Source: an uncultured Clostridia bacterium
GTDB lineage: Bacteria > Bacillota > Clostridia > Oscillospirales > Ruminococcaceae
DNA: 39,594 nucleotides
Direction of reading: 5' to 3'
NCBI GenBank assembly: GCA_947631575.1
Contig: CANRLW010000011.1
Span: forward strand, 1-39,594
Position numbers and translations under genes: made by a program. Shown here in pieces: positions 30,126-30,995 of the stretch (position 1 is its first letter; every line of letters starts with the position of its first letter). The notes beneath the pieces are model-generated. The model had not been told where the DNA came from, searched no databases, and saw only the letters and a program-made list of their open reading frames with translations.

Positions 30126-30156
30126 AATCCTAAGAGAGGTGTAGAGCGTGAAACCA

Positions 30157-30187
30157 CCTCGGAAATGAATTTACAATAGAGCGGGAA
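30157..30187 (+). repeat. 31-nt direct repeat, left copy
   Basis: CCTCGGAAATGAATTT-R-CAATAGAGCGGGAAA occurs here and at 30518-30548 with one mismatch. The two copies flank an R1 element. Confidence 0.7.
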
Positions 30188-30194
30188 AAATTCC

Positions 30195-30440: not shown

Positions 30441-30517
30441 TCACTTTTGATTAACCTTATAGTTTTTCTTTTTCGCTCAAATGTAAGTACATTTTTTAGG
30501 TGGTTTCACGCTCAAAA

Positions 30518-30548
30518 CCTCGGAAATGAATTTGCAATAGAGCGGGAA
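30518..30548 (+). repeat. 31-nt direct repeat, right copy
   Basis: Second copy of the repeat at 30157-30187; it lies next to the 3' end of the small-peptide transcript unit. Confidence 0.7.
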
Positions 30549-30589
30549 AGAGCTTTAATAAAGAAAAGCCCCAGAGCGGGAAAAGTTTA

Positions 30590-30619
30590 CCCCGCGCTGT
30601 ATTGCAGTACAACGCGAGG
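30590..30619 (-). terminator. 3' hairpin of the small-peptide mRNA
   Basis: On the minus strand CCTCGCG ... CGCGGGG pair (one G-U), with an inner TGTA/TACA stem and loop CTGCAA, about 27 nt after the peptide's stop codon and followed by a short TTTT after TAAAC. The 41-nt segment 30583-30623 is 38/41 identical to 30912-30952, the terminator of the divergent small RNA. Confidence 0.65.
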
Positions 30620-30645
30620 CGGACTTATTGCCGAGGCTCTGCCGG

Positions 30646-30729
30646 TTAATCACCTCCATCGAGCCATTTGCATATGTAGTAAGCCACTACACTTGCTAAG
30701 ACGGAGACCAAAAAACCGAAAAGATTCAT
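30646..30729 (-). CDS. 27-residue hydrophobic peptide, candidate type I toxin
   Basis: An 84-bp gene: ATG at 30729, TAA at 30646-30648. The peptide starts MNLFGFLVSVLASVVAYY, a single membrane-spanning helix, and ends with a polar CKWLDGGD tail, the layout of small membrane toxins such as Fst. A strong ribosome binding site (GGAAGGGGG) lies 7 nt upstream, and a promoter at 30776-30804 gives a leader of about 40 nt. I recall many short unannotated clostridial peptides ending YYICKWLD, but cannot check this here. A divergent small RNA is complementary to its start codon region and to its 3' hairpin, which is the main reason to read it as a toxin and not a chance frame. Confidence 0.7.
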   Translation of the reverse strand: MNLFGFLVSVLASVVAYYICKWLDGGD

Positions 30730-30775
30730 AACCGCACCCCCTTCCGTACTGATCTTCCGGGGAACCGGCAACTAT

Positions 30776-30804
30776 ATTATACAACAAACTCCTTAATTCG
30801 TCAA
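30776..30804 (-). promoter_or_regulatory. Promoter of the small peptide
   Basis: Minus strand: TTGACG (30799-30804), 17-bp spacer, TATAAT (30776-30781); predicted start near 30769. Confidence 0.82.
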
Positions 30805-30843
30805 ATGTTTTTCAAAATTTTTTAAGAATTTATCTAAAAAATG

Positions 30844-30872
30844 TTGACAAATACAAAATAATATGCTATAAT
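30844..30872 (+). promoter_or_regulatory. Perfect promoter of the divergent small RNA
   Basis: TTGACA (30844-30849), 17 bp, TATAAT (30867-30872); predicted start at G30879. It matches consensus better than the peptide promoter, as expected for an abundant antitoxin RNA. The two -35 boxes are 39 bp apart, back to back. Confidence 0.88.
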
Positions 30873-30878
30873 ACAATT

Positions 30879-30958
30879 GTAGAAAACCGAAAAGATCTAC
30901 ATAACCGCAAAAAGTTTGCCCCGCGCTGTATTGCAGTACAACGCGGGGCAGATTTTTT
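30879..30958 (+). ncRNA. Candidate antisense antitoxin RNA, about 80 nt
   Basis: Starts with a 5-bp stem GTAGA/TCTAC (30879-30883 with 30896-30900) whose 12-nt loop AAACCGAAAAGA displays the antisense segment. Positions 30883-30896 are complementary to 14 nt of the peptide mRNA (codons 2-6), and 30900-30909 (CATAACCGCA) to 10 nt that include the ATG. Then comes a strong intrinsic terminator: GCCCCGCG/CGCGGGGC (30918-30925 with 30942-30949), inner TGTA/TACA stem, loop TTGCAG, followed by TTTTTT (30953-30958). The terminator is a duplicate of the hairpin at the end of the peptide transcript, hence also complementary to it. It contains no credible reading frame. Confidence 0.72.
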
Positions 30959-30995
30959 ATTGTAAAATAATTGACAAAAAGATTCGACTGCCCTA

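Follow-up and report, generated by a model that had tools for sequence, protein, structure and literature searches.

Type I toxin-antitoxin genes are in general laid out divergently, convergently or in parallel (PMC8167048). The described system closest to the locus analyzed here appears to be par/Fst, known from the Enterococcus plasmid pAD1 and from homologs in Firmicutes, in which a small membrane peptide with a tryptophan signature is paired with an antisense RNA whose complementarity to the toxin message lies in two start-region repeats, DRa and DRb, and in the terminator loop. A review of this system describes high conservation of the convergent promoters, of the bidirectional terminator and of the direct repeats across the par homologs that were examined (PMC7472228). 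Divergent type I pairs have been described in enterobacteria, i.e., tisB-istR1, shoB-ohsC, zor-orz, dinQ-agrB and timP-timR, with adjacent toxin and sRNA genes read in opposite directions. IstR-1 also has a short match to its toxin mRNA, a single one of 21 nt in the tisB leader, and the portions of the two accounts drawn on here mention neither start-codon repeats nor kissing terminators, the group being set apart by this description (PMC7667032, PMC4147584). In Clostridioides difficile, type I modules such as CD2517.1-RCd8 also have small hydrophobic toxins, but these are 50 to 53 residues long and their genes are convergent with a long overlap (PMC6563280). Finally, Ldr/Rdl includes LdrD (PDB 5lbj), the only PDB match to the peptide family profile described below, but this match has an E value of 0.27 and covers 16 residues around the conserved tryptophan; regulation of Ldr/Rdl is more like that of hok/sok (PMC7472228).

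In the window, by which we mean the whole 39,594-nt stretch of DNA analyzed, from a gut bacterium, a peptide gene and a small RNA gene lie on the chromosome, flanked by ksgA on one side and an ABC transporter operon on the other (Table 1). The pair resembles par/Fst in its peptide and in its three complementary segments; unlike in the published description of par/Fst, however, its promoters diverge, there is no overlap between the two predicted RNAs and each has its own, separate DNA copy of the terminator, with no convergent promoters on a shared bidirectional terminator (PMC7472228).

Table 1. Coordinates of the peptide gene, the antisense RNA gene and their elements in the window.
Feature	Position	Strand	Basis or remark
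Peptide ORF, 27 aa, putative membrane toxin	30646..30729, stop included	minus	ATG at 30729
Shine-Dalgarno region GGAAGGGGGTG	30735..30745	minus	sequence; similar Shine-Dalgarno region in most listed relatives
Peptide promoter TTGACG-17-TATAAT	30776..30804	minus	11/12 consensus positions; start expected near 30769
Peptide mRNA terminator hairpin, loop CUGCAA	30589..30620	minus	repeated on the plus strand at 30918-30949
Antisense RNA promoter TTGACA-17-TATAAT, extended -10 (TG before -10)	30844..30872	plus	12/12
Antisense RNA, putative antitoxin, about 80 nt	30879..30958	plus	promoter, repeats, fold
5' hairpin GTAGA/TCTAC, displays first antisense segment	30879..30900	plus	fold; same arms in G034 RNA
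Antisense segment 1, DRa-like, complementary to codons 2-6	30883..30896; target 30712-30725	plus	direct repeat
Antisense segment 2, DRb-like, complement of the start codon plus the preceding 7 nt	30900..30909; target 30727-30736	plus	direct repeat
Antisense RNA terminator hairpin, loop complementary to peptide mRNA terminator loop	30917..30950	plus	repeat, hairpin search

The peptide, MNLFGFLVSVLASVVAYYICKWLDGGD as read directly from the sequence, has a mean hydropathy of 2.2 over residues 3-20, and the tail after the putative helix, KWLDGGD, is short. Its W22 corresponds to a tryptophan found in all 40 aligned family members; a short peptide with one membrane helix, a conserved tryptophan and a charged tail is also what par/Fst has. 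The P/D/S/TxxxG motif of the par/Fst helix is matched within the first 22 residues by 23 of the 40 members; the window peptide reads SVLAS there. The Shine-Dalgarno sequence is partly paired in the predicted fold, but the folding scores (z of 0.33 for the 70-nt leader and -1.99 for the 144-nt message) give no clear support for a leader stem-loop that sequesters it, as in par/Fst.

Two direct repeats of 14 and 10 nt, each 100% identical, connect the antisense RNA with the peptide's start region, and a third, of 49 nt and 90% identity (30581-30629/30910-30958, copies 329 bp apart), comprises the terminator hairpin, with the loop CUGCAA in both terminators. The RNA from 30879 to 30959 is predicted to fold at -35.1 kcal/mol (z = -6.1) into the 5' hairpin and the terminator hairpin, the latter accounting for the larger part of the structure; the 12-nt loop between the GTAGA and TCTAC arms contains 12 of the 14 nt of segment 1. 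In 2,000 dinucleotide-preserving shuffles of both the 56-nt start region of the peptide and the 37 nt at the RNA's 5' end, a 14-nt match never arose (maximum 13), and a 10-nt match arose in 25. Likewise, exact direct repeats in the 411-bp region extend to 27 nt, versus at most 13 in 200 shuffles. No Rfam family reached its gathering score in the window; the 12 matches at a relaxed E value look like chance (best E, 0.066) and were set aside.

These data agree with an earlier note on this DNA, which had proposed a 27-residue minus-strand gene with its own promoter and a strong ribosome binding site, a perfect sigma-A promoter back to back with it for an RNA of about 80 nt, 14 nt antisense to codons 2-6, 10 nt antisense to the start, and display of the longer segment in a hairpin loop. 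The note had also called the complementary pieces duplicated and had cited the terminator of par/Fst only as a contrast. The duplicated pieces are indeed present, and correspond to the par set of DRa, DRb and terminator placed on the toxin's other side; the separately encoded terminators of the window form a third matching segment, as in par/Fst. Because the antisense RNA matches both the start and the end of the peptide message, it would probably keep the peptide switched off.

We consider it about 80% probable that the window pair is a type I toxin-antitoxin module with a par/Fst-like mechanism in a divergent arrangement. The ORF, promoters, terminators, three complementary segments, co-variation and convergent relatives come from the sequence and its comparison with others, and from these we infer the following course. 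The minus-strand mRNA would encode a single-span membrane peptide, probably toxic when made freely, and the strong divergent promoter would drive an RNA that acts in trans and is presumably in excess over the mRNA. By analogy with par/Fst (PMC7472228), the complementary terminator loops would most likely make the first contact; pairing at the start codon and codons 2-6 would then follow, and ribosome loading would be blocked.

By sequence, the window peptide is a member of a large family of tryptophan-containing peptides with strong Shine-Dalgarno sequences. A protein search with the peptide gave matches in 28 of the 43 genus genomes at E ≤ 1, and a 40-row profile gave matches in 28 of 43 at E ≤ 0.001, with up to 8 per genome. 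Beyond the genus the peptide was rarer, with matches in 39 of 197 genomes of the family at E ≤ 0.1, of which the weaker are probably noise, and, at E ≤ 1e-6, in 21 of 394 order genomes and 16 of 391 genomes of a class sample, the window's own genome being counted in each sample. Relatives can be present in several copies, also in tandem, and are carried by plasmids and by phage-like contigs: related peptides were found in 400 Firmicutes plasmid records at E ≤ 10, of which 333 are from Enterococcus, and in 9 phage records. The named relatives of the KsgA protein encoded beside the window pair are mostly from uncultured Clostridia and Oscillospiraceae metagenome-assembled genomes.

Curated models were also compared with the family. 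Pfam gave no match for the 27-residue peptide and two weak ones for a longer, 41-residue frame; on the 40-member alignment it returned 13 families, each matching few members, which were not retained. With the Fst profile NF033608 (cut-off, 26 bits), none of the 43 genus genomes scored over the cut-off and the window's own genome gave no match at E ≤ 1, while weak matches were seen in 11 of the 40 members (and in 1 of 40 with PF13955). With the C. difficile type I toxin model NF047374 (cut-off, 60 bits), again none of the 43 genomes scored over the cut-off; the window peptide had a weak N-terminal match (E of 0.00097, 19.5 bits), and 20 of the 40 members matched weakly. In whole-genome scans NF047374 found the window peptide at E 0.035, and NF033608 did not list it; such matches are near noise, since among 14 control genomes 9 matched NF033608 (1 over the cut-off) and 7 matched NF047374 (none over), and were given no weight. 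As neither curated model was passed, we describe the pair as par/Fst-like in its working and not as a member of NF033608. Elsewhere in the family, a shared sequence, QQISNVIALQRLVCKDMQHN..., stands in place of the N-terminal part in three G040 peptide frames (L119, G040:C2), and L042 (G018:C382:6624) has a different replacement; these look like repeated disruption of the toxin start.

We then compared the architecture of 130 peptide ORFs by seeking an opposite-strand promoter with at least 10 of 12 consensus positions and then a repeat of the peptide's start region; a profile match in G064:C14 missed by the ORF filter and the weak profile matches L098-L108 are outside the 130. A convergent promoter with repeats was found at 86 of the 130 loci. 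In the genus set (87 ORFs in 29 genomes), 63 were convergent in the manner of par/Fst, 4 doubtful (8 nt) and 8 divergent, with no repeat for 12; outside the genus (43 ORFs, including 12 plasmid or phage loci), 23 were convergent, 3 doubtful and none divergent, with no repeat for 17. The 29 ORFs without a matching repeat by this criterion include degenerate frames and 5 plasmid loci that have a downstream repeat but no promoter of at least 10/12. By repeats only, 11 of the 12 plasmid or phage loci have a downstream repeat of 10 to 16 nt; the twelfth, from Butyricicoccus, was doubtful-convergent in the promoter and repeat survey and had no ORF in the repeat-only survey. In a separate set of 58 order and class loci, 33 had a convergent promoter together with the repeat, 10 were convergent as judged from the repeat alone, 5 were doubtful and 9 had no repeat; its sole divergent call, L249, was dismissed, the match being a neighboring copy of the toxin coding sequence. 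Divergence is thus a minority arrangement, found in one genus only within the loci surveyed. At one locus, L053 (G004:C15), a single peptide is followed by two tandem antisense-type units, both with the same 11-nt match.

The earlier note had made its proposal depend on antisense segments that co-vary with the peptide in related genomes, and such co-variation was found. Among 94 pairs with repeats, the shared repeat averaged 11.8 nt for own pairs, a value biased upward by the choice of own pairs with 9 nt or more, versus 5.95 nt for foreign pairs. Duplex energies were therefore also ranked without a length filter, over 133 peptide-RNA pairs with a 12/12 promoter (40 upstream and 93 downstream RNAs). 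For all 8 divergent loci, the own RNA ranked first (five loci) or second (three loci) among the 133, and the three second places were ties with or losses to an ortholog's RNA (window and G041:C10; G041:C39 and G034:C40:2690). A rank of 3 or better was reached by 10 of the 40 upstream RNAs and 66 of the 93 downstream RNAs. Several observations count against this pattern: the remaining two good upstream RNAs, G039:C37 and G037:C8, rank 2 and 3 at peptides that have a better-ranking convergent RNA; the G039:C37 RNA pairs well with many peptides, reaching -38.9 kcal/mol versus -39.2 for the own RNA of G034:C40:4189; and in G041 a synonymous T-to-C change cuts the exact 14-nt match to 10 nt.

Since the divergent loci have two separate terminators, complementarity of their loops is not automatic. 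With one rule for terminator hairpins applied to all eight, each locus was found to share a loop stretch of 7 to 10 nt. In a permutation of loops among six divergent loci, with two close orthologs left out, the own assignment gave a sum of 49, which it alone of 720 assignments reached (next best, 44); these six are not fully independent, since the window and G034:C30 loci occupy the same genomic site and a single G034 contig carries two of the six. At G030:C49 and G034:C30, only 3 nt are common to the stem arms, versus 7 nt to the loops. The window's loop match taken alone is weak because CUGCAA is also the loop of 6 of the 86 convergent loci and the window's two stems are nearly identical.

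Variation at one genomic site was followed at ksgA, which is present in 41 genomes; 29 of 30 collected sites were inspected, 4 of them with less than 300 nt to examine, and a peptide gene was found beside ksgA at 3. The thirtieth, L175, has just 111 nt beyond ksgA. The G041 site has a near-identical pair, with a peptide 96% identical to that of the window, and in both copies the promoters and Shine-Dalgarno sequence are intact. The G034 site has a divergent pair whose peptide is 67% identical to the window's; its start region, antisense segments and both terminator loops differ from those of the window, and each RNA matches its own mRNA. Predicted own-pair duplexes were -52.6 (window), -48.3 (G041) and -43.1 kcal/mol (G034), versus -18.9 to -26.5 kcal/mol for crosses of G034 with the window or G041, the two window-G034 crosses being -21.2 and -18.9; in the non-cognate test of 22 RNAs against the toxins, 21 were scored and one lay too near a contig end.

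The first 36 nt of the antisense RNA are identical in 4 of the 43 genus genomes, two of which have no peptide at the site. In these two, G031:C41 (L254/L256) and G035:C27 (L257), the RNA is kept at ksgA with 36/36 core nucleotides and a 12/12 promoter, the peptide gene is absent, and the sequence flanking it still aligns on both sides. The G031 RNA, whose terminator loop is changed, forms a predicted duplex of -51.4 kcal/mol with the window's peptide start versus -18.9 with the only peptide collected from G031. Conversely, the second family locus of the window's genome, on contig C35 (L067, G000:C35:2983-3152), has an intact RNA beside a truncated peptide frame without a start, and this RNA fits G031's peptide best, at -52.7 kcal/mol. 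The RNA-only sites may reflect recent toxin loss, immunity or another role, the last because two sister genomes have the RNA without the peptide. At L066 (G041:C10) and L254 (G031:C41), ksgA and the antisense RNA are separated by another small RNA-like unit, which has a 12/12 promoter, a GTAGA/TCTAC hairpin and a terminator and for which the set contains no clear matching peptide. In addition, a 33-nt direct repeat (97%) lies beside the window locus (30156-30188 and 30517-30549), with a similar stretch near the G031 RNA-only site; it is probably a dispersed repeat.

As to origin, the antisense promoter of the neighboring unit in head-to-tail arrays is placed between -117 and -155 relative to a unit's start in 12 cases out of 14, the two exceptions being -91 and -273; at the 8 divergent loci the antisense promoter lies at -122 to -145. 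For another 18 upstream 12/12 promoters the set contained no matching peptide; these 18 are termed "orphan" on the basis of the promoter, and some may not be antisense RNAs. At three divergent loci, two in G034:C40 and one in G041:C39, a convergent 12/12 promoter at +187 to +190 would direct an RNA into the terminator, without start-region repeats, and looks like a relic of the convergent form. Downstream 12/12 promoters, with repeats absent, also occur at G034:C30 (+259) and G030:C49 (+136); none was found downstream at the window, G041:C10 and G013 loci. The divergent loci are par/Fst-like loci probably rewired from head-to-tail arrays: if an array lost one of its toxin genes and one of its antisense genes, the window layout would remain, with its two similar terminators.

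As an alternative to a working toxin-antitoxin module, the divergent form might be in decay, a relic of a tandem duplication that has collapsed, with matches left over from the duplication and no working antitoxin. Tandem arrays do share its geometry, the peptide is missing in G031 and G035, degenerate copies exist, and the window's two terminators are still 90% alike; yet promoters and Shine-Dalgarno sequence are intact in the window and G041, the other divergent loci keep their loops complementary despite diverged stems, and at the ksgA site the matching segments of the window and G034 differ together, which makes decay very unlikely as an explanation. The chromosomal setting of the pair, between ksgA and an ABC transporter operon, would instead suit a regulatory or signaling membrane peptide whose dose is tuned by the antisense RNA, all the more as its toxicity is our supposition. 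Against this stand the presence of relatives on plasmids and phage-like contigs, their multicopy and tandem occurrence, and the loss of the peptide (G031, G035) or its truncation (C35) next to an intact RNA, the order of loss expected for an addiction pair, and we regard a purely regulatory peptide as improbable.

The identity of the RNA's first 36 nt in 4 of 43 genomes, two of them without the peptide at the site, could also mean that the RNA is a general trans-acting sRNA with the peptide as one target among others. This possibility is compatible with the toxin-antitoxin reading and is likewise very unlikely: among the 130 collected peptides, the RNA's start-region match is to those of the window and G041 only, and the peptide may have been lost recently. 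We retain a divergent, par/Fst-like type I module as the best explanation of the window pair.

The layout had been unfamiliar to the author of the earlier note. As divergent type I pairs, such loci have the enterobacterial precedents cited above, and to that extent are not new; a divergent par/Fst-like locus was not found in the open-access literature at the level of titles and abstract beginnings, and this form, in which the matching pieces exist as individual DNA copies, is apparently undescribed. The reciprocal keeping of RNAs, with the one that fits the window's peptide retained in G031 and G035 and the one that fits G031's peptide retained in the window's genome, leads us to a broader and more doubtful proposal: antitoxin RNA genes of this genus could have come loose from their toxins by array rewiring, passing from cis to trans action while held to their targets by kissing terminator loops and two start-region matches, and could have persisted once the toxin was gone, perhaps conferring immunity to the same toxin when it comes in on plasmids or in relatives.

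In ordinary par/Fst loci the two terminator loops are complementary because they are the same DNA, and comparison is therefore no guide to the importance of their pairing. The divergent loci encode the loops separately and have kept them complementary even where some stems differ, which provides comparative evidence for terminator kissing and, in the natural variants, a means of testing it. Altogether, these loci suggest a route from a cis antisense antitoxin to a trans-acting one, and suggest that antitoxins can outlive their toxins.
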